Origin: Falsirhodobacter sp. alg1
GTDB taxonomy: Bacteria; Pseudomonadota; Alphaproteobacteria; Rhodobacterales; Rhodobacteraceae
DNA length: 64,000 nt
Assembly: GCF_000739715.2 (NCBI RefSeq)
Contig: NZ_BBJC02000001.1
Coordinates: forward strand, 226,835 to 290,834
Direction: 5' to 3'
In this document: positions 22,115 to 49,674 of the stretch, one piece after another
Numbering within the stretch: the first letter of the stretch is position 1
How the letters are laid out: each line of letters opens with the position of its first letter
Made by a program: the position numbers and the translations under genes
Notes under the pieces: generated by a model
What the model was told of the DNA's origin: nothing
The model's input: the letters and a program-made list of their open reading frames with translations, nothing else
Database searches by the model: none

Positions 22115-22115
22115 C

Positions 22116-23714: not shown

Positions 23715-23717
23715 CCC

Positions 23718-28511: not shown

Positions 28512-28683
28512 ACGGGCGTTTTCCGTTCGGATTCCGCCCGTAATTATGGCGTGGGTGCCTAAAATACGGGCGAAGCCTTTCTAGGAAAGATTTATTCCCC
28601 ACAGGATCTCATACTTATTGAAGGTCAATTTTTATTCCTGTTAGTAAAGTTCTTAACGCAGAACCAAGCTAACGGAGAATGGA
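28512..28683 (+). promoter_or_regulatory. Promoter region of the N-methylglutamate operon
   Basis: This 172-base AT-rich gap precedes mgsA. It includes the candidate operator listed separately, a near-palindrome CTTTCTAGGAAAG at 28577-28589, and a ribosome site ACGGAG seven bases before the start codon. Confidence 0.5.
28632..28649 (+). promoter_or_regulatory. Candidate shared operator, copy upstream of mgsA
   Basis: TTATTCCTGTTAGTAAAG matches 14 of 18 bases of the site upstream of tmm at 40067. The core is an imperfect palindrome of TTCCT-N3-AGGAA, with one mismatch here. It ends 34 bases before the mgsA start. Confidence 0.45.
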
Positions 28684-29571
28684 ATGTGTGGCATTGTTGG
28701 TCTGTTCCTGAAGAAAGAAGAGCTGCGCCCGCAGTTGGGGGGCCTTCTAGCCGACATGCTGATCACCATGACGGATCGTGGGCCCGATAGCGCGGGTATC
28801 GCAATCTATGGCGACGAAGCTGACGGCCTGAAGATGACGATCCAGTCAGATACGCCCGACAGCGATTTTGCCGGGCTGGAGGCGGCTTTGGGCGACGTTC
28901 TGGGCCAGCCGGTCACCGTGCGGGTTGTCGATACCCATGCCGTCATCACATTGCCCGAAGGGGCCGAACCTGCCGCCCGCGCCTTCATGGACAGCCGTGG
29001 CCTGCGCATCATGGGTTCCGGCACCGCGATGGAGATCTTCAAGGAGATCGGCCTGCCCAAGGATGTTGCGGCCCGTTTCGGGCTGCGCGAGATGGCAGGC
29101 AGCCATGGCATCGGCCACACCCGCATGGCCACCGAAAGCGCCGTCACCACCCTTGGCGCGCATCCGTTCTCAACCGGTGCGGATCAATGCCTGGTGCATA
29201 ACGGCTCTCTCTCGAACCACAATCAGATGCGCCGCGTGCTGACACAGAAGGGTTTTGCCCCCCGCACGCAGAACGATACTGAAATTGCCGCCTGCTATAT
29301 TTCGTCCCGTCTGGCCGAAGGGTCGGGCCTGGGGGAGGCGCTGGAAGGGACATTGGAGGATCTGGACGGATTTTTCACCTTTGTGGTCGGCACCCGTAAC
29401 GGCTTTGGTGTGGTGCGGGACCCGATCGCCTGCAAGCCCGCCGTCATGGCCGAAACCGATGACTACGTCGCCTTTGGCAGCGAATACCGCGCGCTGGCCA
29501 ACCTGCCGGGCATCGAGACGGCCCGCGTCTGGGAGCCCGAGCCTGCAACCGTCTATTTCTGGGAGCGTTGA
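28684..29571 (+). CDS. mgsA: N-methylglutamate synthase subunit A (glutamine amidotransferase-like)
   Basis: The 295-residue class II glutamine amidotransferase-like protein begins MCGIVGLF, so Cys2 becomes the N-terminal nucleophile. In N-methylglutamate synthase it splits methylamine from gamma-glutamylmethylamide. Other family signs are DRGPDSAGI, GHTRMAT and LVHNGSLSNH. The subunit arrangement MgsA-MgsB-MgsC parallels the domains of glutamate synthase. The neighbours gmaS and mgdABCD make an Mgs role much more likely than a general GlxB amidotransferase. The stop is one base before mgsB. Confidence 0.88.
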   Translation: MCGIVGLFLKKEELRPQLGGLLADMLITMTDRGPDSAGIAIYGDEADGLKMTIQSDTPDSDFAGLEAALGDVLGQPVTVRVVDTHAVITLPEGAEPAARAFMDSRGLRIMGSGTAMEIFKEIGLPKDVAARFGLREMAGSHGIGHTRMATESAVTTLGAHPFSTGADQCLVHNGSLSNHNQMRRVLTQKGFAPRTQNDTEIAACYISSRLAEGSGLGEALEGTLEDLDGFFTFVVGTRNGFGVVRDPIACKPAVMAETDDYVAFGSEYRALANLPGIETARVWEPEPATVYFWER

Positions 29572-29572
29572 G

Positions 29573-30256
29573 ATGCAGACCATCGACCTTGCCACCACGC
29601 CGTTGCGCGACATGAATGCCATGCTTCAGTCGCAGGCCGCCCAAACCAACCAGACGGCCTGGAACATCGTGAACCCAAAGGGGGCGCATGCCATCGCGGT
29701 CGGTCTTGATGCACCGATCGAGGTCACCGTCAGCGGCTCCACCGGCTATTATTGCGGTGGAATGAACAAGCAGGCCAGTATCCACATCGCAGGGTCCGCC
29801 GGGCCGGGGGTGGCGGAAAACATGATGTCCGGAACCGTCGTGATCGAGGGGGATGCCAGCCAGTACGCAGGTGCGACAGGGCAGGGCGGGCTGCTGGTGA
29901 TCAAGGGGAACGCCTCTTCCCGCTGCGGCATCTCGATGAAGGGGATCGACATCGTGGTGCATGGCAACATCGGCCATATGTCCGCCTTCATGGCCCAATC
30001 GGGCAATCTTGTGGTGCTTGGCGATGCCGGTGATGCCTTGGGCGACAGTCTGTACGAGGCGCGGCTGTTCGTGCGCGGCAATGTCAAAAGCCTTGGTGCA
30101 GATTGCATCGAGAAAGAGATGCGCCCCGAACATCTGGAAATCCTGCGCGACCTGCTGGACCGCGCCGGCGCGGATGCGAAACCCGAAGAGTTCCGGCGCT
30201 ATGGCTCTGCCCGCACGCTTTATCATTTCCACGTCGACAACGCCTCAGCCTATTAA
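29573..30256 (+). CDS. mgsB: N-methylglutamate synthase subunit B (GXGXG domain)
   Basis: The 227-residue protein is a free-standing version of the C-terminal GXGXG beta-helix domain of glutamate synthase. Repeated G-x-G turns are seen in SGSTGYYCGG, GDASQYAGATGQGG and KGIDIVVHGNIGHM. It has a structural rather than catalytic role in the Mgs complex. It lies one base after mgsA and 11 bases before mgsC. Confidence 0.87.
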   Translation: MQTIDLATTPLRDMNAMLQSQAAQTNQTAWNIVNPKGAHAIAVGLDAPIEVTVSGSTGYYCGGMNKQASIHIAGSAGPGVAENMMSGTVVIEGDASQYAGATGQGGLLVIKGNASSRCGISMKGIDIVVHGNIGHMSAFMAQSGNLVVLGDAGDALGDSLYEARLFVRGNVKSLGADCIEKEMRPEHLEILRDLLDRAGADAKPEEFRRYGSARTLYHFHVDNASAY

Positions 30257-30267
30257 GGACCGGACCC

Positions 30268-31596
30268 ATGGATAAGAAAACGCCCCAGACAGTTCCGCGC
30301 CAGTCCTGGACATTCTCCAACGAGGCGAACTCGGAAATCCGCCGCGCCGCCGCCACCGGCATCTACGACATCCGCGGTGGCGGCGCCAAGCGCAAGGTAC
30401 CGCATTTCGACGACCTTCTGTTCCTTGGCGCCTCGATGAGCCGCTATCCGTTGGAAGGGTACCGCGAGAAATGTTCCACCGAGGTGGTGCTGGGAACGCG
30501 CTTTGCCAAGAAGCCGATCCGTCTGAAGATTCCGGTCACGATTGCCGGAATGTCGTTCGGCGCGCTGTCGGCCAATGCCAAGGAGGCATTGGGCCGGGGG
30601 GCAACGGCAATGGGCACCTCCACCACCACGGGGGATGGGGGCATGACCAACGAGGAACGCAACCATTCCGAAACGCTGGTCTATCAGTACCTGCCTTCGC
30701 GTTACGGTATGAATCCGGATGATCTGCGCCGAGCCGATGCGATCGAGATCGTGGTCGGGCAGGGGGCCAAGCCGGGCGGTGGCGGTATGCTGCTGGGCCA
30801 GAAGATCACCGAACGTGTGGCCGGAATGCGCAATCTGCCGGTGGGGATCGACCAGCGGTCTGCCTGCCGCCACCCCGACTGGACAGGGCCGGATGATCTG
30901 GAGATCAAGATCCTCGAAATCCGCGAGATCACGGGATGGGAAAAGCCGATCTACGTGAAGATCGGAGGCGCACGCCCCTATTACGACACCGCCTTGGCCG
31001 TGAAGGCCGGTGCAGATGTCGTGGTTCTGGACGGCATGCAGGGCGGCACGGCTGCAACGCAGGATGTGTTCATCGAAAACGTCGGCCAGCCCACGCTTGC
31101 CTGTATCCGCCCCGCAGTGCGCGCGTTGCAGGATCTGGGAATGCACCGTCAGGTCCAGCTCATTGTTTCGGGTGGTATCCGGACAGGGGCAGATGTGGCC
31201 AAAGCCCTGGCTTTGGGGGCAGATGCCGTGGCCATCGGCACGGCGGCGCTGGTCGCCCTGGGCGATAACGACCCGCATCTGGAGGAAGAGTACCAGAAGC
31301 TGGGCACCACCGCCGGCGCCTATGACGATTGGCACGAAGGTCGTGACCCTGCCGGTATTACCACGCAGGATCCCGAACTGATGGCCCGTCTGGACCCGGA
31401 AGAGGCGGGGCGCAGGCTGCGCAACTATCTCGCGGTGCTGACCCTGGAATGCCAGACGATCGCGCGGGCCTGCGGCAAAAGCCATGTGCATAATCTGGAG
31501 CCCGAAGATCTTTGCGCCCTGACGATCGAAGCTGCGGCAATGGCGGGTGTGCCATTGGCCGGAACCGACTGGATCCCCGGCAAGTCCGGACTTTGA
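30268..31596 (+). CDS. mgsC: N-methylglutamate synthase subunit C (FMN glutamate synthase domain)
   Basis: The 442-residue protein is the FMN-binding TIM-barrel part of glutamate synthase. It joins the released methylamine to 2-oxoglutarate reductively to yield N-methylglutamate. IAGMSFGALSANAKEALGRG, GQGAKPGGGGML, VKIGGARPYYDTAL and DGMQGGTAAT are the family's FMN- and substrate-site signatures. ATG 30268 follows AAGGACCGGA. Identification as MgsC rather than GlxD rests on the gmaS and mgd neighbours. Confidence 0.88.
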   Translation: MDKKTPQTVPRQSWTFSNEANSEIRRAAATGIYDIRGGGAKRKVPHFDDLLFLGASMSRYPLEGYREKCSTEVVLGTRFAKKPIRLKIPVTIAGMSFGALSANAKEALGRGATAMGTSTTTGDGGMTNEERNHSETLVYQYLPSRYGMNPDDLRRADAIEIVVGQGAKPGGGGMLLGQKITERVAGMRNLPVGIDQRSACRHPDWTGPDDLEIKILEIREITGWEKPIYVKIGGARPYYDTALAVKAGADVVVLDGMQGGTAATQDVFIENVGQPTLACIRPAVRALQDLGMHRQVQLIVSGGIRTGADVAKALALGADAVAIGTAALVALGDNDPHLEEEYQKLGTTAGAYDDWHEGRDPAGITTQDPELMARLDPEEAGRRLRNYLAVLTLECQTIARACGKSHVHNLEPEDLCALTIEAAAMAGVPLAGTDWIPGKSGL

Positions 31597-31643
31597 ACGT
31601 GCCTACCGCCCCTTTCCAATTCCCTGCCTGAGGAAACCGTCCC

Positions 31644-32945
31644 ATGACCGATCTGGCCGCCTTTGCCCAAGCCAAGGGTATCAAGTATTTCATGATTTCC
31701 TATACCGACCTGTTCGGGGGCCAACGGGCCAAGCTGGTTCCGACGCAGGCCATCGCAGACATGCAGGCGGATGGGGCGGGATTCGCCGGTTTTGCGACAT
31801 ATCTGGATCTGACACCGGCACATCCCGATATGCTGGCGGTGCCGGATGCCAGCTCTGTCATCCAGCTGCCGTGGAAAAAGGATGTGGCCTGGGTTGCATC
31901 CAACTGCGTGATGGGCGGCGAACCTCTGGCGCAGGCCCCGCGCAACGTGCTGAACCGTCTGGTGGCCGAAGCGGCCGAGATGGGGCTGGAGATCAAGACA
32001 GGTGTGGAGCCGGAGTTTTTCCTGCTGACCCCCGAAGGCACTGCAATTTCGGACCCCGCCGATACGGCGGCCAAGCCCTGCTATGACCAGCAGGCCATCA
32101 TGCGCCGCTATGACGTGATCGCGGAAATCTGCGATCATATGCTGGATCTGGGCTGGGAGGCCTATCAGAACGATCATGAGGACGCGAACGGCCAGTTCGA
32201 GATGAACTGGAAATACGACAGCGCCCTTGCGACTGCCGACAAGCATTCCTTCTTCAAGTTCATGACCCGGTCCATCGCCGAAAAGCACGGGATGCGGGCG
32301 ACGTTCATGCCCAAACCGATCATGGGGCTGACGGGAAATGGCTGTCACGCGCATATTTCCGTCTGGACCAAGGATGGAAAGAACGCATTCTCCGATCCGG
32401 CAAAGGAATTGAGCTTGTCCGAGGACGGTCGCCATTTCCTGGGCGGGATCATGAAGCATGCTTCGGCTCTGGCGGCGATTACCAACCCAACCGTCAACAG
32501 CTACAAACGCATCAATGCGCCGCGTACCAATTCGGGCGCGACATGGGCGCCCAATAGCGTGACCTGGACGGGCAACAACCGCACCCATATGGTCCGCGTG
32601 CCGGGCCCCGGCCGGTTCGAGCTGCGCCTGCCCGACGGTGCGGTAAACCCCTATCTGCTACAGGCGGTCATCATCGCGGCAGGGTTGTCGGGCCTGAAAT
32701 CAAAGGCCGATCCGGGCAAGCGCTGGGATATCGACATGTATGCCGAGGGGCATAAGGTCGAAGGGGCGCCAAAGCTGCCGCTGAACCTGCTGGATGCCAT
32801 CCGCGCATTTGATGCCGACAAGGAATTCAAGACCGCCCTGGGCGCAGATTTTTCGGCCGCCTTTATCAAGCTGAAGATGCAGGAATGGAATTCCTATACC
32901 GCCCATCTGACCCAGTGGGAGCGTGATACCACGCTTGATGTCTGA
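31644..32945 (+). CDS. gmaS: Gamma-glutamylmethylamide synthetase
   Basis: The 433-residue protein of the type III glutamine synthetase family ligates methylamine to glutamate with ATP to give gamma-glutamylmethylamide. The catalytic barrel shows EPEFFLL, ENANGQFE-type metal ligands (HEDANGQFEMNW), GNGCHAHIS and PGPGRFELRLPDGAVNPYL. By sequence alone it could be called GlnT, but it lies between mgsC and mgdA as in methylotrophic Rhodobacterales, which favours GmaS. Confidence 0.9.
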   Translation: MTDLAAFAQAKGIKYFMISYTDLFGGQRAKLVPTQAIADMQADGAGFAGFATYLDLTPAHPDMLAVPDASSVIQLPWKKDVAWVASNCVMGGEPLAQAPRNVLNRLVAEAAEMGLEIKTGVEPEFFLLTPEGTAISDPADTAAKPCYDQQAIMRRYDVIAEICDHMLDLGWEAYQNDHEDANGQFEMNWKYDSALATADKHSFFKFMTRSIAEKHGMRATFMPKPIMGLTGNGCHAHISVWTKDGKNAFSDPAKELSLSEDGRHFLGGIMKHASALAAITNPTVNSYKRINAPRTNSGATWAPNSVTWTGNNRTHMVRVPGPGRFELRLPDGAVNPYLLQAVIIAAGLSGLKSKADPGKRWDIDMYAEGHKVEGAPKLPLNLLDAIRAFDADKEFKTALGADFSAAFIKLKMQEWNSYTAHLTQWERDTTLDV

Positions 32946-32978
32946 TCGCGTCCCCGAACTTTATATCCCGAGATTCCA

Positions 32979-34229
32979 ATGCGATTTTCCGGCTTTCGTG
33001 TAATCAAAGAGGCGCTGACCGGCCATAAGGGCTGGCAGCCGCTATGGCGCAACCCCGATCCGAAACCTGCCTATGACTATGTGATCGTGGGGGGCGGCGG
33101 GCATGGGCTGGCTACGGCCTATTATCTGGCGAATACCTTTCGCAAGGCGCGCATCGCCGTATTGGAAAAGGGCTGGCTCGGTTCGGGAAATATCGGGCGC
33201 AACACCACGATCATCCGGTCCAATTACGGATTGCCGGGTAACCAGCCCTTCTATGAATTTTCGATGAAGCTGTGGGAGGGGTTGGAGCAGGAATTCAACT
33301 TCAACGCCATGGTCAGCCAGCGCGGCATCCTGAACCTGATCCATACGGATGCACAGCGCGATGCCTATCGCCGGCGCGGCAATGCGATGCTGTTTTCCGG
33401 GGCCGATGCCGAGTTGCTGGACCGCGACCGGGTGCGGGACATGTGCCCCTGGCTGAATTTCGACAATGCCCGTTTTCCGATCAAGGGCGGTCTGATGCAG
33501 CGCCGCGCGGGAACGGCGCGCCATGACGGTGTGGCCTGGGGCTATGCCCGGGGTGCCGACCGCGCCGGGGTCGACCTGATCCAGAACTGCGAGGTTACGG
33601 GCTTCCGGATCGAGGAGGGGCGCATTCGCGGGGTCGAGACGTCCCGCGGGTATATCGCGGCGGCAAAGGTGGGTGTGGCGGTGGCCGGTTCCACCAGCCG
33701 TGTGATGGAAAAGGCCGGTTTGCGTCTGCCGATCGAAAGCCATGTCCTGCAGGCGTTTGTGTCCGAAGGGCTGAAGCCGCTTATACCCGGCGTCATAACT
33801 TTCGGGGCCGGGCATTTCTACGTCAGCCAGTCCGACAAGGGGGGGCTGGTGTTCGGCGGGGATATCGACGGTTACAACTCCTATGCCCAACGCGGCAACA
33901 TGCCGGTGATCGAGGATGTGATCGAAGGGGGAATGGCCCTGATGCCCATGATCGGCCGTGCGCGCCTGCTGCGCGTCTGGGGCGGGATCATGGATATGTC
34001 GATGGATGGCAGCCCCATCATCGACAGAACGCCGGTGGAAGGCCTCTATCTGAATGCAGGCTGGTGTTATGGCGGGTTCAAGGCCACGCCTGCCAGCGGC
34101 TATTCCTTTGCGCATCTTCTGGCCACGGATACCCCGCATGAAACCGCCCGGCATTTCCGGCTGGACCGGTTCGCACGTGGCCATGTCATCGACGAAAAGG
34201 GCATGGGTGCCCAACCGAACCTGCATTGA
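32979..34229 (+). CDS. mgdA: N-methylglutamate dehydrogenase subunit A (sarcosine oxidase beta-like)
   Basis: The 416-residue FAD-dependent amine oxidase subunit is homologous to the beta subunit of heterotetrameric sarcosine oxidase and should hold the catalytic flavin. The dinucleotide fold is VIVGGGGHGLATAYYLAN near residues 27-44. NTTIIRSNYGLPGNQPFYE follows, and the C-terminal lobe has SMDGSPIIDRTPVEGLYL and GWCYGGFKATPASG. It oxidises N-methylglutamate to glutamate and formaldehyde in this gene context; sarcosine is the alternative substrate. Confidence 0.88.
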   Translation: MRFSGFRVIKEALTGHKGWQPLWRNPDPKPAYDYVIVGGGGHGLATAYYLANTFRKARIAVLEKGWLGSGNIGRNTTIIRSNYGLPGNQPFYEFSMKLWEGLEQEFNFNAMVSQRGILNLIHTDAQRDAYRRRGNAMLFSGADAELLDRDRVRDMCPWLNFDNARFPIKGGLMQRRAGTARHDGVAWGYARGADRAGVDLIQNCEVTGFRIEEGRIRGVETSRGYIAAAKVGVAVAGSTSRVMEKAGLRLPIESHVLQAFVSEGLKPLIPGVITFGAGHFYVSQSDKGGLVFGGDIDGYNSYAQRGNMPVIEDVIEGGMALMPMIGRARLLRVWGGIMDMSMDGSPIIDRTPVEGLYLNAGWCYGGFKATPASGYSFAHLLATDTPHETARHFRLDRFARGHVIDEKGMGAQPNLH

Positions 34230-34238
34230 GAGACAGAG

Positions 34239-34529
34239 ATGCTTATTCCCCATCCGCTTCTTGGTCCGCGCGACGCGCAGGAATTCACCTATCTGGGGGA
34301 TGCCGCCCTGCTGGCCCGCCCCGACGGCATGGCCGAAGGGGCGCTGGGCGCATTCATCGACTATGTCTATCTGCGGGATAACCCGGCCGGGGTTCATCGC
34401 GAATTGTGGTTCCATGAACAGGGGGACCGTTCGTGGCTGGTGGTCACACGCAACACGGTCACCCATGAGATCATCGATGCGCAGCTTGCCCGTGATGTGG
34501 CCTTGGCACGAAAAGGGGCGGTGGCATGA
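34239..34529 (+). CDS. mgdB: N-methylglutamate dehydrogenase subunit B (sarcosine oxidase delta-like)
   Basis: The 96-residue protein matches the small delta subunit of sarcosine oxidase over its length, including GPRDAQEFTYLGDA and HRELWFHEQGDRSWL. In true SoxD a zinc ion is held by a CPxCG motif and a later Cys. Here the first motif is HPLLG and the later GC is GD, and the whole protein has no cysteine, so the zinc site is lost. That supports an N-methylglutamate dehydrogenase. The gene overlaps mgdC by 4 bases. Confidence 0.87.
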   Translation: MLIPHPLLGPRDAQEFTYLGDAALLARPDGMAEGALGAFIDYVYLRDNPAGVHRELWFHEQGDRSWLVVTRNTVTHEIIDAQLARDVALARKGAVA

Positions 34530-38893: not shown

Positions 38894-38943
38894 CCACCCT
38901 TATTTGCCACAGGCCTGAAACGGCATTCTGACCGGAGATTTCC

Positions 38944-39828: not shown

Positions 39829-39861
39829 TTCTGCAAATTGCCGATATGGCATCACGGGGGG

Positions 39862-39890
39862 GGGCAGCCGCAGCAGCGGTTGCCCTTTTT
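39862..39890 (+). terminator. Rho-independent terminator after purU
   Basis: GGGCAGCCGC pairs with GCGGTTGCCC (one G-U) around AGCA and is followed by TTTTT. It separates the mgs-purU operon from tmm. A run of nine Gs at 39856-39864 precedes it. Confidence 0.88.
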
Positions 39891-40176
39891 CATATGTGCC
39901 CATCCACCTGCGTGGCATCGGCGTTCCCCCTGATTCAAACGAAAGCGGTTAGCAGGGCAGGGGGAAAACCGGGTCTTCAAAGGGGCTAATCCACAGCCGT
40001 TCCGCCCATGTTTTGATCTTTCATACCAGCATATGCGCGGGTTTCGTCCGAATTACGCCCCCTCAATTATTCCTGGCAGGAAAATTAGTTGCCTTGAATC
40101 GGCCATCCGGCCTTTGCTGATTCATGCCGAAACGGCCGGTCCTTGACCGGGGTGCGAACGGAACGGGGAATGTGGA
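39891..40176 (+). promoter_or_regulatory. Promoter region of the tmm-tdm-dmm operon
   Basis: These 286 bases have no gene. They hold the candidate operator at 40067-40084, a small GGCC-rich hairpin near 40109, and the ribosome site GGGGAATGTGGA just before tmm. I could not set firm -35/-10 boxes. Confidence 0.5.
40067..40084. promoter_or_regulatory. Candidate shared operator, copy upstream of tmm
   Basis: TTATTCCTGGCAGGAAAA contains the exact palindrome TTCCT-GGC-AGGAA, 92 bases before the tmm start. Related sites lie upstream of mgsA and amtB. Confidence 0.5.
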
Positions 40177-41520
40177 ATGACCAAGCGTGTGGCGATTATC
40201 GGGGCAGGCCCATCAGGGCTGGCGCAACTGCGTGCATTTCAGGATGCCGCACAAAAGGGTGCGGATATCCCCGAGGTTGTCTGCTTTGAAAAGCAGACCA
40301 ATTGGGGTGGCCTGTGGAATTATACATGGCGCACCGGCGTTGATGAGTATGGAGAGCCGGTCCATGGCTCCATGTATCGCTATTTGTGGACCAATGGCCC
40401 CAAAGAGGGTCTGGAATTTGCCGACTACTCGTTCGAGGAGCATTTCGGCAAGCAGATCGCATCCTATCCGCCCCGCGCAGTCATGTTCGATTATATCGAG
40501 GGCCGGGTAAAGAAGGCGGGTGTGCGCGACTGGATCCGTTTCAGTTCGGTGATCCGCTGGACGGAATTCGATGCCGCGACCAATACCTTCGAGCTGACGG
40601 TCCATGACGTGGAAAACGACCGTGTCTACAAGGAGACCTTTGATCATGTGATCGTGGCCTCGGGCCATTTTTCCAGCCCCAACGTCCCGGAATATCCGGG
40701 GTTCGACCAGTTCTATGGCCGTATCATCCATGCCCATGATTTCCGCGACGCGCGTGAATTCGAAGGGCAGGATGTGCTGGTGGTGGGGTCATCCTATTCC
40801 GCCGAGGATATCGGATCGCAGTGCTGGAAATACGGCGCGAAAACAGTAACCTCCTGCTACCGTTCGGCCCCCATGGGGTTCGCATGGCCCGACAACTGGG
40901 AGGAAAAGCAGGGTCTGGTCCGGGTAGAGGGCAAGACGGCATTTTTCCGGGATGGCAGCAGCAAGAATGTGGATGCCATCATCCTGTGCACAGGGTACCG
41001 CCACTACTTCCCGTTCTTGCCGGATGACCTGCGTCTGAAAACCGCAAACCGCTTGGCCGCGCGGGATCTGTATAAAGGCGTGGTCTATGTGCATAATCCG
41101 CAGATGTTCTATCTGGGCATGCAGGACCAGTGGTTCACCTTCAACATGTTCGATGCCCAGGCATGGTATGTGCGGGACATCATCATCGGCCGGATAGAGG
41201 TGCCTGCCGACAAAGCGGTGCTGCTGGCGGATGTTGCGGACCGCGAGGCCCGTGAAGACGCCTCGGACGATACCAAATATGCCATCAAATATCAGGGTGA
41301 CTACGTCAAGGAACTGATTGCCGACACCGATTATCCCAGCTTCGATGTGGACGGGGCCTGCCATGCGTTTTTTGAATGGAAGAACCACAAGGTCACCGAC
41401 ATCATGGGCTTCCGCAACCACTGCTACAAATCGGTGATCACGGGCACGATGGCCCCCGTGCACCACACGCCGTGGAACCTTGCGATGGATGATTCCATGC
41501 AAACCTATCTGCAAAGCTGA
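40177..41520 (+). CDS. tmm: Trimethylamine monooxygenase
   Basis: The 447-residue flavin monooxygenase oxidises trimethylamine to trimethylamine N-oxide with NADPH and O2. The FAD motif GAGPSG is at residues 9-14, the FMO fingerprint [11 protein letters not shown] near 178-188, and the NADPH fold [12 protein letters not shown] near 203. Long segments such as [19 protein letters not shown] and [17 protein letters not shown] agree with roseobacter Tmm as I remember it. Position directly upstream of tdm confirms the assignment; indole or other amine oxidation as a side activity is possible. Confidence 0.95.
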
Positions 41521-41546
41521 CACCTGTTTCACCAGAAAGGTTCCGG

Positions 41547-43913
41547 ATGCTGTCGCTTCCCCCAGATGCCCTGATGCGGCCCGGCGCTCCGCGTGCCAGC
41601 CGCGCCCGCCGCCCCGAAATTTTCGGCCGTGCGCCCGATCTTGAACGCTACACCGTTCAGGGGGGCGGCGCCATTGTAGTCGAGATCGCGCCGGGTGACC
41701 GGTTGGAAATTCTGAATGACGAAGGTGGACAGCCGTGCGAGGTGCTGGGGGCCCATCCTGACGGGCGGCTGGATGCGGGCCTGCTGGCGGCCCGCGCCGA
41801 TGGCCCTGCCGATGGTTTGCGGGCCTTGGTTGCGGCGGGCACGGCGCCCCGCCTGCGACAGGCCTTCGCGATGCGGAATATCGACCTTGCGGGGGCCCGC
41901 GCCATCCGGTTGTTCGGCCCTGCCGCGCGGGCGGGTGATGCGGTGTCGTTCACATCACAGGGCAAGGGGTGGATCATTATCGCCGCCCCCGCAGCACCCA
42001 TGGATTTCGAGGCGCAGGATACAGCTACCCCGCTGACCCTGCGGCTGACGCGGGCCAAACCGCGCCGCGTGGGGCAGTTTGCGCTGCCGGACCCTCTGGC
42101 CGACATGAAACTGGACTTGCGCATTGCCTCCTCTACCGCCGCCGCCTACCGCGTGAAGGCGGGGGAGTTCATCCAGATCCTGGATGTGGATGGCCGCCAG
42201 TGCACCGATTTCCAATGCTTCGATGCACGCAAGCTGGACAGGGGGATCGCCCATCCGCTGGATGTGACCACGACGCGGACCATCCAGAACCATGCCTATC
42301 CGATGCCGGGCCTGCACGCGAAATACTTCGATCAGGACATGACCCCGCTGGTAGAGGTCATTCAGGATACTTGCGGCCGACATGATGCCTTTGCGATGGC
42401 CTGTGCGTCCAAATACTATGATGACATCGGTTATCCCGGCCATGCCAACTGCTCGGACAATTTCAACGGTGCATTGGCGGATTACGGTGTTCCGGCCCGT
42501 CCCGGATGGATGGCGGCCAATTTCTTTTTCAATACCGGTATCGATGCCCATGGCGTGATGTACGCGGATGAGCCGTGGTCCCGCCCGGGGGATTATGTCC
42601 TGCTGCGGGCCCTGACGGATCTGGTCTGTGTTTCATCGGCCTGTCCGGACGATACCTCTCCGGCCAACGGCTGGACCCTGACCGACATTCACGTGCGCAG
42701 CTATGCCGCCGAGGAACGCTTTCAGCGCGCCTCTGCATGGCGTCCCACCCCCGAAGCGGAGCCTGTCATGACGCGGGAAAGCACCTTTCACCAGAACTTT
42801 GCCGCCTTGACGCGTGATTTTGTCGATTACCGCGGATTCTGGCTGCCCAATACCTTTGCCACCACAGACCCGGTTGAAAGCTATTGGGCCTGTCGTGAGG
42901 GGGTTGTGGTCATGGACCTGAGCGCCCTTCGCAAATTCGAGGTGACCGGTCCGGACGCAGAGCGGTTGATGAACTGGATTCTGACCCGCGACGTGGAAAA
43001 GCTGGGCGTGGGACAGATTGTCTATTCCTCGATGTGCTACCCCCATGGCGGCATGATCGACGATGGAACATTGTTCCGCCTGGGCGCGCAGAATTTCCGC
43101 TGGATTGGTGGCTCCGATGAAGGGGGCGTATGGATGCGCGAAGAGGCCGAACGGCTCGGGCTTAACGTCCTCGTCCGCGCCTCCACGGACCAGATGCACA
43201 ATCTTGCGGTGCAGGGGCCGACATCACGGGATCTGATGAAAGAGATCATCTGGGCTGCCCCGCATCAGCCATCGGTGGAAGAGATCGGCTGGTTCCGGTT
43301 CACCGTTGGCCGCATCGGTGGGCCGACAGGGGCGCCCGTGGTCGTTTCGCGGACGGGGTATACCGGTGAACTGGGGTATGAGGTATTCTGCCATCCCAAG
43401 GACGGTGCCGCCGTTTTCGAGGCGGTGTGGCAGGCAGGACTGCCATTCGGCATGCGCCCGATGGGGCTGGCGGGGCTGGATCTGACGCGCATTGAATCGG
43501 GTCTGGTCTTTGCGGGATATGATTTCAGTGACCAGACGGACCCGTTCGAGGCGGGTGTCGGGTTCACCGTCCCGCTCAAATCGAAAACGGTGGATTTTGT
43601 CGGTCGGGAGGCGTTGATCCGGCGCAAAACCACGCCATCGCGCCGCTTTGTGGGTCTGGAAATCGACGGGCATGAAGAGGTGGCCCATGGCGATTGCATC
43701 CGCATCGGCCGCGCACAGGTGGGTGAGGTGTGTTCGGCCATGCGCTCCCCGCGTACGGGTCAGCTTATCGCGCTGGCGCGGGTGGATATTGCCCATGCCG
43801 AAGCGGGCACCGAAGTGGAGGTGGGCCGGCTGGACGGGCACATCAAGCGCCTGACCGCCCGCATCACACCCTTTCCGCATTATGACCCGAAAAAAGAGCG
43901 TCCGCGGTCCTAA
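41547..43913 (+). CDS. tdm: Trimethylamine N-oxide demethylase
   Basis: The 788-residue protein splits TMAO to dimethylamine and formaldehyde. It is a fusion of an N-terminal DUF1989-type metal-dependent domain (about residues 1-390, with ILDVDGRQCTDFQCFDAR, NCSDNFNGAL and SSACPDDTSPANGW) and a C-terminal GcvT tetrahydrofolate domain (about 405-788, with TGYTGELGYEVF). The two-domain order is that of characterised Tdm enzymes. The GcvT half presumably passes formaldehyde to THF. It lies 26 bases after tmm and 66 bases before dmmD. Confidence 0.93.
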   Translation: MLSLPPDALMRPGAPRASRARRPEIFGRAPDLERYTVQGGGAIVVEIAPGDRLEILNDEGGQPCEVLGAHPDGRLDAGLLAARADGPADGLRALVAAGTAPRLRQAFAMRNIDLAGARAIRLFGPAARAGDAVSFTSQGKGWIIIAAPAAPMDFEAQDTATPLTLRLTRAKPRRVGQFALPDPLADMKLDLRIASSTAAAYRVKAGEFIQILDVDGRQCTDFQCFDARKLDRGIAHPLDVTTTRTIQNHAYPMPGLHAKYFDQDMTPLVEVIQDTCGRHDAFAMACASKYYDDIGYPGHANCSDNFNGALADYGVPARPGWMAANFFFNTGIDAHGVMYADEPWSRPGDYVLLRALTDLVCVSSACPDDTSPANGWTLTDIHVRSYAAEERFQRASAWRPTPEAEPVMTRESTFHQNFAALTRDFVDYRGFWLPNTFATTDPVESYWACREGVVVMDLSALRKFEVTGPDAERLMNWILTRDVEKLGVGQIVYSSMCYPHGGMIDDGTLFRLGAQNFRWIGGSDEGGVWMREEAERLGLNVLVRASTDQMHNLAVQGPTSRDLMKEIIWAAPHQPSVEEIGWFRFTVGRIGGPTGAPVVVSRTGYTGELGYEVFCHPKDGAAVFEAVWQAGLPFGMRPMGLAGLDLTRIESGLVFAGYDFSDQTDPFEAGVGFTVPLKSKTVDFVGREALIRRKTTPSRRFVGLEIDGHEEVAHGDCIRIGRAQVGEVCSAMRSPRTGQLIALARVDIAHAEAGTEVEVGRLDGHIKRLTARITPFPHYDPKKERPRS

Positions 43914-43979
43914 GCGTGCGCGGCGAATCCGGCCGCTGGCGCGATGCCACGGCAAGCAACCAACAATAGGAAAAGACAG

Positions 43980-45116
43980 ATGACCGCATCCTGGAGATTT
44001 TCGACCCTTGCCAGCCGCCACCGCGCCCTTGGCTCCGATCTGGAGGATTGGAGTGGTATGGGAACGGCATGGTCCTATGACGGGGACCCCGAAGCCGAAT
44101 ACATGGCGATCCGCACCAAGGCGGGACTGATGGATGTTTCTGGCCTGAAGAAGGTGCATGTCGTGGGGGCGGGGGCCAGCCATGTCATCGACCGTGCCAC
44201 CACGCGCAATGTGGAAAAGCTGGCACCGGGGCGTTCGGTCTATGCCACGATGTTGAATGACGCGGGCAAACTGATCGATGATTGCGTGATCTACCGGACA
44301 GGGCCGAATGCCTTCATGGTCGTGCATGGATCGGGGCAGGGGTTCGAGCAGTTGACGATGGCCTCCACTGGTCGGGATGTGGCGGTATTGTTTGACGACA
44401 ATCTGCACAACCTGGCCTTGCAGGGTCCGCTGGCCGTCGATTTTCTGGAAAAGCACGTCCCGGGCATCCGCGATCTGGCGTATTTCTCCCATATCCAGAC
44501 AAAGCTGTTTGGCGTTCCGATCATGATCTCCCGCACCGGGTACACCGGGGAACGGGGATACGAGCTGTTCGTCCGCGGGCAGGACGCGCCGCTGGTCTGG
44601 GACACCATTCTGGCCGAAGGGGCGGAGATGGGGATCATCCCCTGCCGCTTTACCACGCTGGATATGCTGCGGGCCGAAAGCTACCTGCTGTTCTTCCCCT
44701 ATGACAATTCGGAGATGTATCCCTTCGAGGATGAGGCCTGCGGTGATACGCTTTGGGAATTGGGGCTCAATTTCACCGTCAGCCCCGGCAAGACAGGGTT
44801 CCGTGGCGCCGAGGAGCATTACCGTCTGAAAGGGCGTGAGCGGTTCAAGATCTGGGGCCTGAAGCTGGAAGGTACCGCCGTGCCGGAGAATGGCGCGCCT
44901 GTATTCCGCGATGGCAAGAAGGTGGGCATCGTGACCCAGGCCATGCACTCCCCCCTGAATGACTGGACCGTGGCGATTGCGCGGCTGGACGTGGATTGCG
45001 CGAATGCGGGAACCGCTGTGACGGTCCGGTGCGAAACTGCGGGCGAGATTGCCGCCGTAACTTCGCCGATGCCCTTCTATGACATCGATAAGGCCCGTCG
45101 CACAGCGAAGGGCTAA
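43980..45116 (+). CDS. dmmD: GcvT-family THF-binding protein of dimethylamine catabolism
   Basis: The 378-residue aminomethyltransferase-family protein (VSGLKKVHVVGAGA, MLNDAGKLIDDCVIYR, SRTGYTGERGYELF) matches the position of dmmD in the dmmDABC clusters of roseobacters. It probably condenses formaldehyde, released when dimethylamine is demethylated, with tetrahydrofolate. It is not the glycine-cleavage T protein: no gcvH or gcvP lies near and it heads the dmm genes. The ATG at 43980 follows AGGAAAAGACAG. Confidence 0.83.
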   Translation: MTASWRFSTLASRHRALGSDLEDWSGMGTAWSYDGDPEAEYMAIRTKAGLMDVSGLKKVHVVGAGASHVIDRATTRNVEKLAPGRSVYATMLNDAGKLIDDCVIYRTGPNAFMVVHGSGQGFEQLTMASTGRDVAVLFDDNLHNLALQGPLAVDFLEKHVPGIRDLAYFSHIQTKLFGVPIMISRTGYTGERGYELFVRGQDAPLVWDTILAEGAEMGIIPCRFTTLDMLRAESYLLFFPYDNSEMYPFEDEACGDTLWELGLNFTVSPGKTGFRGAEEHYRLKGRERFKIWGLKLEGTAVPENGAPVFRDGKKVGIVTQAMHSPLNDWTVAIARLDVDCANAGTAVTVRCETAGEIAAVTSPMPFYDIDKARRTAKG

Positions 45117-45127
45117 GCGCATCCATA

Positions 45128-45153
45128 GACGGTGCAGCCCCCGCCGCACCGTC
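45128..45153 (+). repeat. Hairpin between dmmD and dmmA
   Basis: GACGGTGC and GCACCGTC form a perfect 8-base stem around a 10-base loop inside the operon, with no T tract. It could stabilise or attenuate the message upstream of the monooxygenase genes. Confidence 0.5.
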
Positions 45154-45171
45154 CCGAACAGGAGCATTGCA

Positions 45172-45774
45172 ATGGCAGGAACCGCGTTCACCCCCTCGAT
45201 CCTGAGCCGTCCCGTCTATGCGGGGCTGGTGTCCAGAGGGGCAACCCCCGCAATCATGCTGGCAGAGGGAGAGGGGGCGCTGGCCCTGATGGCCCTTGCC
45301 GATCATGACCCTGCGGTAATGGGGCATGCCCATATCATCCATATTCCCGCAGGGACTGGTCATGGTGCTGCATTGCAGGCGCTGGGCCCCGCGATGTACC
45401 ACGAGGGGCCGACATTGCCCGCGGTTCTGCCGCGCCTGCGCAAGGCGCTGGGCGATGCGCATATGGGCACTGCCCTGTACATTGCAGGCACCGAAGGGGT
45501 CATCGGTCAGGTTACAGCCGAGGCACTGGCCGCAGGTGTGGCTGCCGGTGCCATAAGTACAGAACATCACGGCGGTGCTGCCCGCCGCATGCAGTGCGTC
45601 CACTGCAAGGGCATTACCGAAGATGTCGTGACAGACCCCTTCATTTGCAGCCACTGCGGGCTTTCGCTATTCGTGCGGGACCATTTCTCCCGCAGGCTGG
45701 GCGCCTTTCAGGGTGTGTGCGTCGACGCCGAAACGCCGGGGCAGATTCCCGCTATGCAGGAGATCCGCCCATGA
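45172..45774 (+). CDS. dmmA: Dimethylamine monooxygenase subunit DmmA-like
   Basis: The 200-residue protein carries a C-terminal rubredoxin- or zinc-ribbon-like site with Cys142, Cys145, Cys159 and Cys162 (CVHC and CSHC), followed by LFVRDHFSRRLGAFQGVC, a conserved DmmA tail. The N-terminal ~130 residues look like an alpha/beta domain related to a reductase's partner. It works with the next two genes to oxidise dimethylamine to methylamine and formaldehyde. An iron site for electron transfer is possible. ATG 45172 has ACAGGAG eight bases upstream. Subunit letters vary in the literature. Confidence 0.82.
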   Translation: MAGTAFTPSILSRPVYAGLVSRGATPAIMLAEGEGALALMALADHDPAVMGHAHIIHIPAGTGHGAALQALGPAMYHEGPTLPAVLPRLRKALGDAHMGTALYIAGTEGVIGQVTAEALAAGVAAGAISTEHHGGAARRMQCVHCKGITEDVVTDPFICSHCGLSLFVRDHFSRRLGAFQGVCVDAETPGQIPAMQEIRP

Positions 45775-46709
45775 TGTTGCGTGTCGCTTCGGTCGAGCCA
45801 TTGTCGCCGCTGGTCACGAAATTCCGTTTCGTGCATCCCGACGGTGCGGCGCTCCCGCTGTTTTCCGGCGGGGCGCATGTGGTGGTTGAAATGCCGGACG
45901 GCGAGATGATCCGCCGCAATGCCTATTCGCTGGTATCGGACCCGATGGATGGTTCGGGCTACGAGATTGCCGTCCGCCGCGAGGATCTGGGGCGGGGCGG
46001 ATCGCTTTACATGCATACCCGCGTGGCCGAGGGAGATCTGCTGGGCGTAGGGGCGCCTGCCAACCTGTTCGGGCTGGACCTGCGCGCGCGCAAGCATGTG
46101 CTGGTGGCCGGCGGCATCGGGATCACGCCCTTTATTGCGCAGATCCGTCAACTGACACGGCTGCAGCTTCCGTTCGAACTGCATTATTGCGCCCGTTCGC
46201 GATCCGAGGCGGCAGGGCTGGCGCTGCTGCCGGATTTGCCGCAGGTGCATGTCCATATATCGGATGAAGGAAACCGGATGGATCCTGCCGAGGTGCTGTC
46301 GGGGCAGCCCTTGGGGACGCATGCCTATACATGCGGGCCCGAAGGATTGGTGGCTGCAATGGCCGATGCCGGTGCACGGCTGGGATGGCCCGAGGCGGCG
46401 CTTCATTCCGAAACCTTTTTGGCACCACCCCCGGGCAAGCCGTTCCGCGTAACTCTTGCACGCTCCGCGCTGACGCTGACGGTCGGCCCTGACCAAAGCC
46501 TGCTGGAGGCATTGGAGGCGGCGGGCGTGGATGCGCCTTGGCTTTGCCGGGGCGGTGTGTGCGGGCAATGCGAAACGGCGGTGCTTTCCTGCCATGGGCG
46601 GATCGAGCATCACGACCATTGGCTGGACGACGACGAAAAGGCCGCGCAGACGAAGATCATGCCCTGTGTTTCGCGGTTTCAGGGCCAAGACCTCATTCTG
46701 GACAGGTGA
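45771..46709 (+). CDS. dmmB: Dimethylamine monooxygenase ferredoxin-reductase subunit DmmB-like
   Basis: The 312-residue PDR/VanB-type oxidoreductase passes electrons from NAD(P)H through FMN to a [2Fe-2S] centre. The flavin motif RRNAYSLVS is near residues 48-56, the nucleotide motif GGIGITPF at 114-121, and the C-terminal plant-type ferredoxin cluster uses Cys259, Cys264, Cys267 and Cys299. The start overlaps dmmA by 4 bases; a second ATG follows directly. It should feed the heme subunit encoded next. Confidence 0.9.
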   Translation: MMLRVASVEPLSPLVTKFRFVHPDGAALPLFSGGAHVVVEMPDGEMIRRNAYSLVSDPMDGSGYEIAVRREDLGRGGSLYMHTRVAEGDLLGVGAPANLFGLDLRARKHVLVAGGIGITPFIAQIRQLTRLQLPFELHYCARSRSEAAGLALLPDLPQVHVHISDEGNRMDPAEVLSGQPLGTHAYTCGPEGLVAAMADAGARLGWPEAALHSETFLAPPPGKPFRVTLARSALTLTVGPDQSLLEALEAAGVDAPWLCRGGVCGQCETAVLSCHGRIEHHDHWLDDDEKAAQTKIMPCVSRFQGQDLILDR

Positions 46710-46712
46710 TGC

Positions 46713-47753
46713 ATGACACTCCGCTTCAATGACGAGACGTTCCGCGGCGATTACACCTATCATAATTCGGCCGCGGCTGTGCGCCGCTTTCCGTTTCCGT
46801 TCGATCAGGACAGCTACATGTATTCGGTGAACATCGAACCGCACCGGCCCACGCGGGCCGGATCGGTTTTTGAACACCGCTTCGACGTGGATGAACACTA
46901 CGTGGCGGAGATGCAGGATCGCGCCATAACCCTGGCGGATGATCCTTTGCGCTGCCAGTCCCTGCCGCATATGGAGCTGGCGGGGTGGGATTTCCTGGAA
47001 CTGGTGATGGTGTGCAAATCCGAGGATTATCCGGATATGTTCACCCTGCACCGCGATGGTGACAGGTGGCACTGGATCAACCGGCCACTGGGGATCGACC
47101 AGCGTTTCACCTTCATGGATACCAGCACGCTGCCCTGTGGCCCGCTGGAATATATCGGGCGGCAAACGCAGGGCGACCATGCATTGCTGGACCAGCGCGA
47201 GGGCAATCTCTGGATGGATGCGGGAATCGTGACCTCGCAGGCCGACTGGAGCCTCGATTTCAACATCGGCATGAATTTCTTCGAATGGCATGCCCCTGTA
47301 CCCAAGGCGCATGAACTGGGTATTTTCCAGCGGGCGCTGAAATTCCTGACGAATGTCCAGCAGGGCAAGCCGTCGCGCCGGTTGAACTGGACAATGACGG
47401 TCAATCCCCGGCTGGATACAAGCCCCGAGAACTATCACAAATGGGGGCCTGAAAAACGGACGATCACCCCCGAGAACGTAGGCGCAAAGCAGTACCTGCG
47501 TGTGGAACTGCAGTCTTTCTACCGGTTGCCCCGCTCGAATGCGCTTGTGTTTCCGATCCGCTGCTATCTGATTTCGCTGGAGGATCTGGTCACGGTGCCG
47601 AAATGGGGCCGCCGCTTCCATCGGGTGCTGCGTGATCTGCCGGATGAGCTGGCGGAGTATAAGGGATTTGCCGTGAACCGGTCGATGATCGTCGATTATC
47701 TGGCGCGGTTCGATGACGGGGCCGAAACTTCGGCCGGAATATTTCCCGATTAG
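46713..47753 (+). CDS. dmmC: Heme-dependent oxidative N-demethylase (DUF3445), DmmC-like
   Basis: The 346-residue DUF3445 protein is the likely oxygenase component, which demethylates dimethylamine. Recognisable family segments include YMYSVNIEPHRPTRAGS-like, WHWINRPLGIDQRFTFMD, NFFEWHAPVPK and RSMIVDYLARFD. The family is reported to bind heme; I cannot assign the ligand. It begins 3 bases after dmmB and ends the operon before a strong terminator. Confidence 0.85.
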   Translation: MTLRFNDETFRGDYTYHNSAAAVRRFPFPFDQDSYMYSVNIEPHRPTRAGSVFEHRFDVDEHYVAEMQDRAITLADDPLRCQSLPHMELAGWDFLELVMVCKSEDYPDMFTLHRDGDRWHWINRPLGIDQRFTFMDTSTLPCGPLEYIGRQTQGDHALLDQREGNLWMDAGIVTSQADWSLDFNIGMNFFEWHAPVPKAHELGIFQRALKFLTNVQQGKPSRRLNWTMTVNPRLDTSPENYHKWGPEKRTITPENVGAKQYLRVELQSFYRLPRSNALVFPIRCYLISLEDLVTVPKWGRRFHRVLRDLPDELAEYKGFAVNRSMIVDYLARFDDGAETSAGIFPD

Positions 47754-47780
47754 AACGGGCATCACCGTTCCGGTATCATG

Positions 47781-47815
47781 AAAGACAGGCGGCAGGTTTG
47801 CCGCCTGTCTTTTTT
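47781..47815. terminator. Strong terminator between dmmC and amtB
   Basis: A perfect 14-base stem (AAAGACAGGCGGCA) with the loop GGTT is followed by TTTTTT on the plus strand. On the minus strand only three Ts follow, so it serves dmmC mainly and may also help to end amtB, whose stop is 4 bases away. Confidence 0.93.
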
Positions 47816-47818
47816 GTT

Positions 47819-49213
47819 CTATGCAGGCTTTTTGCTGATCCGTGCCGCAGCCAGCGACGTGACCTGATCATCGGCAGAGGGATGTACGGTTGCCCCTGCC
47901 AGCATGCCATCATTCAACCGGTAGCCGACCTCGCCATGCGAAACGGTGTCCAGCCCCTCGTATTCTTCTTCTTCGTCCACACGCAGGCCGATCAATGCGC
48001 CGACGACTTTCAGGGCAACGAAGGTAGTGACGACAGACACAAGAATACTGAAGGCCATAACCAGAAGCTGCGGACCCATTTGCGAGATCATGGTGCGCCC
48101 TTCGGGAAAGCCCAGACCGCCCAGGGAAGGTGCGGCGAAGATAACGGTCAGGATGCCGCCGACGATTGCGCCCACACCATGCACGCCGAACACGTCGAAC
48201 GAATCGTCATAGCCGACGCGCTGTTTGACAACCTCGACCGCGAACAGGCAAACTGGGGCGGTCAGGAAGCCGACCGCGATTGCCCCTGCCGGGCCGACAA
48301 AGCCGCAGGCGGGCGTAATGGCCACCAACCCCGCAATCGTGCCGGACAGCAGGCCAAAGGTGCTTGCACGCTTGCGGTGAACAGCCTCCGTCACCATCCA
48401 GCCGATCGCGCCACCGGCGCCGCCCAGCATGGTGTTCAGCATGATCAGGGACGAGAAGCCATTGGCGGCCAGCACACAGCCGCCGCAGAACGCCAGCCAG
48501 CCCACCCACAGCATCGCACCACCGGTATAGGTCATGGTCATGTTGTGCGGGGCCATCATCGTGGTGCGATATCCGCGGCGCGGCCCCACCACCAATGCGC
48601 AGACCAGGGCCGCGATTCCGGCGTTCAGGTGGACCACATTGCCGCCGGCAAAGTCCATCACGCCCATGTTGAACACCCAGCCGCCGCCCCATGCCATATG
48701 GGCCATCGGGACGTAGTTGATCAGGAACCAGATCGCGAGGAACATCATCACCGCAGCGAACTTCATCCGTTCGGCAAAGGCGCCGACGATGATGGGCGCG
48801 GTGATTGCCGCGAACAGCATCATGAACAGGACATAGAGGTATTCGGGAATGGTCGCGACCAGAGAATCCTGCGTGACGCCTGCAAGAAAGACAACCGACA
48901 GCCCGCCGATGATGGCATTGAAGGGCGCATCGGTATCAAAGGTCAGCGTATAGCCCACGGCGATCCACAGCACGCAGATCATGGAGATGCCTGCAAAGAT
49001 CTGGGTCAGGAGGGACAATACGTTCTTGCTGCGCGCCATACCCGCATAGAACAGGCCAAGGCCGGGCAGCATCATCAACATGACGATAAGCGCACAGGTT
49101 GCAACGAATGCGGTATCCCCTGCGCTGAGTGTCGGTGCTTCTTCCTGTGCGAAGGCTATGGCGGGCAGAACGGCGAATACGCCTGCCAAACTGATCGGTG
49201 TTTTGAGCCGCAT
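47819..49213 (-). CDS. amtB: Ammonium transporter
   Basis: The 464-residue Amt family channel has an N-terminal signal-like helix and about eleven membrane segments. GDTAFVATCALIVMLMMLPG, GLFYAGMARSKN, GGNVVHLNAGIAAL and DSFDVFGVHGVGAIVGGI carry the pore and twin-histidine positions. No glnK is next to it. Facing the methylamine island, and sharing the candidate operator with it, it may retain ammonia released from amine breakdown or take up methylammonium. The second role is speculation. Confidence 0.93.
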   Translation of the reverse strand: MRLKTPISLAGVFAVLPAIAFAQEEAPTLSAGDTAFVATCALIVMLMMLPGLGLFYAGMARSKNVLSLLTQIFAGISMICVLWIAVGYTLTFDTDAPFNAIIGGLSVVFLAGVTQDSLVATIPEYLYVLFMMLFAAITAPIIVGAFAERMKFAAVMMFLAIWFLINYVPMAHMAWGGGWVFNMGVMDFAGGNVVHLNAGIAALVCALVVGPRRGYRTTMMAPHNMTMTYTGGAMLWVGWLAFCGGCVLAANGFSSLIMLNTMLGGAGGAIGWMVTEAVHRKRASTFGLLSGTIAGLVAITPACGFVGPAGAIAVGFLTAPVCLFAVEVVKQRVGYDDSFDVFGVHGVGAIVGGILTVIFAAPSLGGLGFPEGRTMISQMGPQLLVMAFSILVSVVTTFVALKVVGALIGLRVDEEEEYEGLDTVSHGEVGYRLNDGMLAGATVHPSADDQVTSLAAARISKKPA

Positions 49214-49674
49214 GAATGGTACCCATATGTGATTGGCGTTTGACCCATCATCCGGACATCAAGTGAATCACCCAAAAGATATTTAGTTTCCTTGCAGGCA
49301 ATATCGTATCCGCATGCAAGTGCGCCGCTTTGCATGACGGATGCGTGATATTTCAGCGTATGGGAAACACGTTGCCCCGGTTATGGTCATAACGGGGCGC
49401 GTGATGGGCATAGGGTAATCATGGTCAGGACCGGATTCGGGATCTGATCAATCTATTGGCAGGTATGAACCCCTGGTTGCATATGCCATCGGGAGATATC
49501 TTGGGAAGGCGGTTACAGCCTAACGGATGCCGGGCGAACCGCCGTCGCGGGATCCACTGAAATTGGCGGACATAGCATGCGCTGTTGGCTGTAATGGGGC
49601 CGTGGCTCAAAGGCGGTTGCATCAGGTGTATTGGCGTCTACCCTGTATGATTTATCCGAATGCAGAGAGATCCC
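49214..49674. promoter_or_regulatory. Divergent region between amtB and the secreted protein gene
   Basis: These 461 bases carry no convincing gene. The part next to amtB holds the candidate operator at 49287-49301. The rest shows ordinary base composition and no repeat I recognise. AGAGAGA precedes the secreted-protein start. Confidence 0.45.
49287..49301. promoter_or_regulatory. Candidate shared operator, copy upstream of amtB
   Basis: TTTCCTTGCAGGCAA has the TTCCT-N3-AGGAA core with one mismatch, 74 bases before the amtB start on the minus strand. Confidence 0.4.

Follow-up and report, generated by a model that had tools for sequence, protein, structure and literature searches.

Several Pseudomonas aeruginosa regulators (ErfA, PsdR, PauR and others) combine an XRE-type helix-turn-helix (HTH) domain with a C-terminal cupin domain. 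They are reported as inhibitors that bind as dimers to palindromes, mostly in core promoters, and their targets are mostly neighbouring genes for the uptake or processing of small molecules; the three consensus sequences reported for them differ from one another (PMC7901475). Here we describe a 64,000-nucleotide stretch of DNA from Falsirhodobacter sp. alg1 (hereafter the window), in which a methylated-amine locus contains a gene for a protein with the same two domains. Unlike the sites of the P. aeruginosa inhibitors, its predicted operator is a longer, 41-bp array of four half-sites (TTnCCTgncAGGAAAAAaTTTTTCCTgncAGGnAA), which would serve three units in the window, with genes of methylated-amine metabolism as targets. 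In the window, mgsA is preceded by two such arrays, tmm and amtB by one each. From sequence comparison, we consider it probable that the array is read by the neighbouring XRE-cupin protein, a predicted local repressor that would be freed by a metabolite of the pathway.

For the same pathway genes, control by other protein families has been described. In Ruegeria pomeroyi these genes are controlled by TmaR (AraC type, SPO1584) and TmoR (GntR type, SPO1553), encoded beside mgd and tmm; a methylamine catabolite is reported to induce the pathway via TmaR, TmoR to repress tmm, and the words XRE, cupin, motif and palindrome appear nowhere in the main text on these regulators (PMC13390433). In the methylamine clusters of strain KarMa (Rhodobacteraceae), a co-located XRE gene is marked together with amt, fadR and glxA, and the available part of that text proposes no target or site for it (PMC7574528). 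The words XRE, repressor and promoter do not occur in the available text of a study on Paracoccus aminophilus (PMC4543880), and a study on Methyloversatilis reports an unnamed regulator induced together with the N-methylglutamate genes (PMC5023235). Within the literature covered, by titles and parts of texts and with subscription journals mostly outside the coverage, the array is unnamed and the XRE protein has no assigned target. What is new is the long composite operator, with a candidate reader within the known XRE-cupin family.

Both domains of the window protein were confirmed by family profiles: the XRE-type HTH at the N-terminus (PF01381, 47.7 bits, cut-off 23) and the cupin at the C-terminus (PF07883, 43.3 bits, cut-off 27.2). 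Residues H154, E158 and H192 are invariant across 25 sequences (alignment A2). Among solved chains, the best match by sequence is 1y9q. The best NCBIfam match is PuuR, likewise an XRE-cupin protein, which regulates the putrescine pathway of E. coli; the window protein was rejected as an equivalog of PuuR (NF007408, 48.3 bits, cut-off 211). The PuuR pathway passes through a gamma-glutamyl-amine synthetase resembling glutamine synthetase (GS), and the PuuR operator differs from the 41-bp array. The gene names (XRE-cupin, mgsA, gmaS, tmm, tdm and amtB), several of them proposed in an earlier note on this DNA, were upheld by matches to family profiles. mgsA is the first gene of a run mgs - gmaS - mgd - purU - folD.

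The earlier note had drawn attention to a shared palindrome, TTCCT-N3-AGGAA, lying 34, 92 and 74 bases before mgsA, tmm and amtB. The three sequences are present as placed, at positions 28635-28647 (TTCCTGTTAGTAA), 40070-40082 (TTCCTGGCAGGAA) and 49288-49300 (TTCCTTGCAGGCA), with one, zero and one mismatch to the pattern, respectively. The distances to the starts of mgsA (28684), tmm (40177) and amtB (49213, minus strand) are correct. The bare 13-mer is not enriched: at one mismatch or fewer it occurs at 52 places in the 2.92-Mb genome, as compared to 47 for the control pattern, the 13-mer read backwards, and it was therefore rejected as a genome-wide signal. In the window, up to three mismatches being allowed, 156 matches were found as compared to 144 expected. 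The remaining four perfect copies in the genome all lie within open reading frames (ORFs) of 123, 194, 543 and 676 amino acids. Thus, for the 13-mer alone, we found one of the two outcomes that the note had named as speaking against its proposal. The other was lack of conservation, and here the 13-mer did prove conserved. Counting copies with at most one mismatch in the 300 bp upstream, it precedes mgsA in 17 of 71 relatives' loci (shuffles 1.3%), gcvT in 7 of 24 (0.8%), xre, the XRE-cupin gene, in 13 of 90 (0.6%) and tmm in 3 of 25 (0.8%).

XRE orthologues were gathered from 41 relatives, from 80 named contigs (the best 80 of 503) and from 198 genomes of the family, and mgsA was searched in the same 198 genomes. 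A palindromic motif search, with zero or one occurrence per sequence (ZOOPS), was trained on 52 sequences from other genera, each covering 250 bp upstream of mgsA, the window genome being excluded and one training genome contributing two mgsA copies. The motif AGGAAAAAwTTTTTCCT emerged de novo in 50 of the 52 sequences; the two sequences without it come from G046, which has no XRE orthologue, and from G017. Five-fold cross-validation with a fresh search per fold recovered 48 of 51 sequences at 11 bits or more, and the motif was found in 51/53 real versus 0/53 reversed sequences. Beyond this core, the alignment extends to TTnCC on the left and to AGttGa on the right. When these flanks are made symmetric, the unit becomes one of four half-sites, TTnCCTgncAGGAAAAAaTTTTTCCTgncAGGnAA, composed of two palindromes of 13 bp whose centres lie 20 bp from each other. 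TTCCT-N3-AGGAA is one half of this array, and every site noted earlier is one palindrome of an array. The earlier observation is real; the element is larger than the 13-mer and the finding is stronger than first thought. As a side observation, contig 9 of genome G008 holds two mgsA copies with equal scores (116423-117313 and 196130-197020), either a duplication or an assembly repeat.

Matrices of 21 and 41 bp, both trained without the window genome, were then applied to the 64 kb. With the 41-bp matrix, the top four matches (26.1, 24.1, 18.7 and 15.6 bits; next 10.2) are, in this order, operator 2 of mgsA, the amtB site, the tmm site and operator 1 of mgsA. The top four with the 21-bp matrix lie at 40076 (18.3), 28581 (16.9), 28621 (15.4) and 49274 (12.4), followed by a fifth at 9.0. 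One of the two mgsA arrays, at 28571-28611, had been overlooked in the earlier note; it lies 40 bp from the other. More than one site is present in 12 of 53 mgsA regions, with spacings of 20 bp (five pairs) and 40 bp (three pairs) in 8 of the 16 pairs. A 17-letter pattern fitted to the window sites gave 26 rows in the genome (10 and 16 by strand; control 5 and 5) at 20 places, three of which are the promoters. This pattern is circular for those three and was used only for finding other candidates.

The array accompanies particular genes in the relatives. Matches of at least 13 bits with the 41-mer were counted within 300 bp upstream at non-redundant loci (shuffles 0 to 0.5%). An array precedes mgsA in 75 of 76 loci (shuffles 0.3%), a count that includes the window and the training genomes. 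It precedes gcvT, the first gene of the dmm operon, in 19/21 loci and tmm in 36/52, neither region having been among the training sequences. For xre and tdm the counts are 21/108 and 2/11. mgdA (2/39), gmaS (0/41), hodm (0/22), purU (0/7) and folD (0/9) were rejected as regulon members. Across the 80 named loci, 147 sites fall within the 54 kb before mgsA, tmm, gcvT, xre and amtB, versus 27 in the other 1384 kb, a 139-fold difference in density. A few of these 27 lie directly after xre (e.g. L036, L100, L102). Overall, the comparative evidence favours an operator shared by mgsA, tmm and amtB, as first proposed, with the four-half-site array and not the 13-mer as its unit.

AT-rich intergenic DNA yields palindrome-like words, and such sites might arise by chance. 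The behaviour of the bare 13-mer agrees with this, 15 of 100 block-shuffled windows contain one 41-mer match of at least 13 bits, and in the window's own genome (G000) two stretches outside the cluster score 16.2 (L236) and 16.0 (L237). The latter came, along with the four cluster sites, from a scan at the same threshold of 42 stretches (100 kb) picked by pattern matches. However, two such matches were reached in none of the shuffled windows, whereas the real window has four, and these sit at three promoters named beforehand while the matrix comes from other genera. The near-constant presence before mgsA and the difference in density given above also argue against chance. As an explanation of the set it is very improbable and largely refuted; single sites, above all that of amtB, could be chance matches. 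The caution of the earlier note that chance matches are possible holds for the bare 13-mer; the larger element, as a set, goes well beyond chance. We also observed that the L236 site (contig 2, about 349434) lies directly before an ORF resembling catalase by eye.

Presence of the array follows that of the XRE gene. One or more methylamine genes, at 40% identity or more, stand beside the XRE gene in 78 of the 80 named relatives' loci. With presence cut-offs set in this analysis (180 bits for XRE, 315 bits for mgsA), 58 of the 198 family genomes have a true mgsA, another 6 of the 64 passing the E-value limit having only a divergent paralogue; a strong XRE orthologue is present in 55, another 5 of the 60 passing the limit having only weak relatives. 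Both genes occur in 51 genomes, mgsA alone in 7, the XRE gene alone in 4 and neither in 136. Among the genomes with a true mgsA, the array before this gene is present in 50/51 with the XRE gene versus 1/7 without it (P = 1.2e-6), a comparison weakened by being in-sample, the 41-mer having been trained on 49 of the sites from genomes with the XRE gene, and by the genomes without it being mostly more distant in mgsA. In G046, the clearest control, the mgsA product is 75% identical to that of the window, the best XRE relative reaches 36% and the array score is -17. Divergent mgsA paralogues of genomes without the XRE gene have an array in 0/7 cases, an eighth having no upstream DNA.

Another regulator could read the array, such as the AraC-type TmaR, the GntR-type TmoR or an unlinked nitrogen regulator, the XRE gene merely travelling with the cluster. 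TmaR is reported to bind the tmm, tdm, dmm, gmaS-mgs and mgd promoters of R. pomeroyi, and its binding site is not stated in the available text (PMC13390433). A GlxA/AraC gene and the XRE gene occur together in some clusters, and Paracoccus aminovorans has an array (19.1) in the gap from mgdA to the GlxA gene. Yet the window's genome carries four arrays and no close match to either regulator in proxy searches. A TmaR-like AraC protein was found zero times at E <= 1e-50, the proxy being the AraC protein encoded next to mgdA in Celeribacter neptunius (L046) and not SPO1584 itself. For a TmoR-like GntR/FCD protein, with the FCD protein near tmm of Paracoccus yeei as proxy, the best match in the genome was 33% identical and outside the window. 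Moreover, mgdA, which adjoins tmaR, is among the genes nearly always devoid of the array, and it is the XRE gene that the array tracks. We consider another reader improbable.

The pairing of the array with the XRE-cupin protein extends beyond the Rhodobacterales. In plasmid records of Sphingobium, Acinetobacter, Aquabacterium and Paraburkholderia, which were chosen together with one of Pseudomonas mendocina from one listing of XRE relatives, XRE proteins 40-47% identical to that of the window (41-44% in alignment A3) accompany arrays. Sphingobium has an array of 32.8 before mgsA. In Acinetobacter, an AT-rich locus, arrays of 27.3 and 21.6 lie between gmaS and xre, and others of 21.9 and 14.8 between xre and amtB. 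Aquabacterium has one of 14.0 between gmaS and xre and one of 13.6 before glnK-amtB, the next best match being -3.8. The unannotated Paraburkholderia record has arrays of 22.6 and 17.4 flanking xre on both sides. Outside the Alphaproteobacteria, local shuffles gave P values of 0 to 0.010 with the 41-mer (500 shuffles). The recognition helix GMLSKIEN is common to the window protein and the four distant proteins, and differs in five remoter relatives (L011-L015). The site thus appears to stay with the XRE protein across three classes, which speaks for a working pair. Together with the co-occurrence in the family, these distant pairings support the XRE-cupin protein at 27867 as the predicted reader, as the earlier note had suggested.

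At a threshold of E <= 1e-150, the only amtB found in the 198 family genomes was that of the window. Its site was therefore judged on plasmid records and on Paracoccus versutus. Besides the records above, an array lies close to amtB in P. versutus (19.0) and in Methylobacterium sp. DM1 (21.8).

As dimers, the XRE-cupin protein would occupy the two palindromes of the array, 20 bp apart, and this binding would shut the mgsA, tmm and amtB promoters. Its cupin domain may sense a glutamylated or methylated amine, perhaps gamma-glutamylmethylamide or N-methylglutamate. Such a circuit would place trimethylamine (TMA) oxidation, the assimilation of methylamine and the uptake of ammonium under a single signal. 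The median position of the array centre in the relatives is -74, counted from the start of mgsA. Relative to this centre, many of them show TTGA at +14 and, by eye in the alignment, a TAGCGT-like hexamer at +37, the two being 17 bp apart; the array would then abut a -35 element, its right half-site overlapping it. Because of this predicted overlap, and by analogy with the P. aeruginosa XRE-cupin inhibitors, we favour a local repressor. The main rival is that the XRE-cupin protein binds the arrays as an activator, beside or over the -35 element, and, with a methylamine metabolite bound, aids RNA polymerase. In relatives the array centre precedes the inferred start by about 49 bp, which would also suit an activator, and in Ruegeria the pathway is induced, its master regulator TmaR being mainly an activator (PMC13390433). 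On the other hand, the P. aeruginosa proteins examined are reported as inhibitors (PMC7901475), and occlusion fits with the recurrence of arrays at intervals of 20 or 40 bp in some promoters, one such array lying near the start of mgsA in the window. Activation appears unlikely, though less so than a different reader.

Several observations weigh against a repressor of this kind reading the array. G017 has the XRE gene and no mgsA site, while G193, AT-rich and without the XRE gene, has an array match of 15.3 (shuffle P 0.045). G020 was counted among the genomes without it, though next to the gene for its 38% XRE relative there is a site of 20.4. In Rhodobacteraceae a tmm site is present in 18/34 genomes with the XRE gene versus 2/11 without (P = 0.08; 45 of 46 tmm genomes evaluated), and tmm is a patchy regulon member. 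The XRE protein of L010 has a strong site and the helix GMLSKVEN, and that of P. mendocina pMET-2 (L286) has GMLSKIEN and no array in 14.6 kb (best 6.6). With the 21-mer, the local evidence outside the Alphaproteobacteria is weak to moderate, with shuffle P values of 0.002 and 0.032 for Acinetobacter and of 0.042 and 0.136 for Aquabacterium. Methylobacterium sp. DM1 has the amtB site and no XRE gene within the 13.3 kb examined; P. aminovorans and Paracoccus sp. MA have none before amtB; and between the divergent mgsA and amtB genes of P. yeei, a strong array (22.3) lies towards mgsA and a weak one (10.2) towards amtB. From these comparisons, amtB is a probable member, though an irregular one. 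As for promoters, an automatic simple -10 search gave mixed offsets, with peaks at 29-30 and 36-37, and no clear sigma-70 promoter was found in the window. Finally, autoregulation of xre in the window was rejected since no array lies at the gene start; the sites before xre in relatives are partly found where tmm is divergent from it.

Some further sites were observed in the course of the analysis. In L011 (G020), the strong match of 20.4 (centre 2106) lies directly after the 38% XRE relative and beside an ORF resembling a fatty-acid desaturase by eye, so that the array may serve other pathways. The XRE gene of L286 (7001-7621) lies near agmatinase/arginase-family genes and transposases, with no mgs genes annotated. 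In Paracoccus sp. MA (L282), an array of 18.5 (centre 14802) lies between a truncated haemoglobin gene and xre. On plasmid II of P. aminovorans (L280), arrays at centres 4597 and 5444 (29.4 and 16.5) precede a CoA ester lyase gene and an aminotransferase that opens a run of serine-cycle-type genes; the regulon of this species may therefore extend to one-carbon assimilation. The features of the window are collected in Table 1. Positions 19834-26721, beside the cluster, may hold a second unit for nitrogen salvage; the genes there encode ABC transporter components, a carbon-nitrogen hydrolase, an amidohydrolase, an Asp/Glu/hydantoin racemase and a LysR regulator.

Table 1. Predicted operators and genes of the methylated-amine locus (positions in the window; scores in bits)
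Feature	Position	Centre	Strand	Scores, profiles and remarks
XRE-cupin regulator gene, predicted reader	27867-28511		+	PF01381, PF07883; ORF opens at 27729, alignments favour 27867
Operator 1 of mgsA (predicted)	28571-28611	28591		41-mer 15.6, 21-mer 16.9
Operator 2 of mgsA (predicted)	28611-28651	28631		41-mer 26.1, 21-mer 15.4; holds 28635-28647 as right palindrome
mgsA, MgsA-type amidotransferase, predicted target	28684-29571		+	PF13522/PF13537
gmaS, type III GS (gamma-glutamylmethylamide synthetase), downstream in the same run	31644-32945		+	TIGR03105 above cut-off
Operator of tmm (predicted)	40066-40106	40086		41-mer 18.7, 21-mer 18.3; holds 40070-40082 as left palindrome
tmm, trimethylamine monooxygenase, predicted target	40177-41520		+	NF058570 above cut-off
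tdm, trimethylamine N-oxide (TMAO) demethylase, downstream of tmm	41547-43913		+	NF053776 above cut-off
GcvT-like, DmmA-like/reductase and HODM-like genes (dimethylamine monooxygenase group)	43944-47753		+	PF01571, PF22290, PF11927
amtB, ammonium transporter, predicted target	47819-49213		-	PF00909; TIGR00836 above cut-off
Operator of amtB (predicted)	49264-49304	49284		41-mer 24.1, 21-mer 12.4; holds 49288-49300

In the dissolved organic nitrogen of the sea, methylated amines are an important fraction (PMC13390433). The pathway is present here in a genome without a close match to TmaR or TmoR in the proxy searches, and the operator with its candidate reader makes the missing control testable. 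The matrix allows methylamine regulons, amtB included, to be predicted in other genomes. With somewhat better than even confidence, we propose that the XRE-cupin protein and its 41-bp operator form a transferable methylated-amine switch across Alpha-, Beta- and Gammaproteobacteria. This switch would join the oxidation of TMA and dimethylamine (DMA), the N-methylglutamate pathway, ammonium transport and the serine-cycle genes of P. aminovorans, and would act as the master regulator in genomes without TmaR. If this is true, one switch would govern the uptake and breakdown of methylated amines and ammonium.

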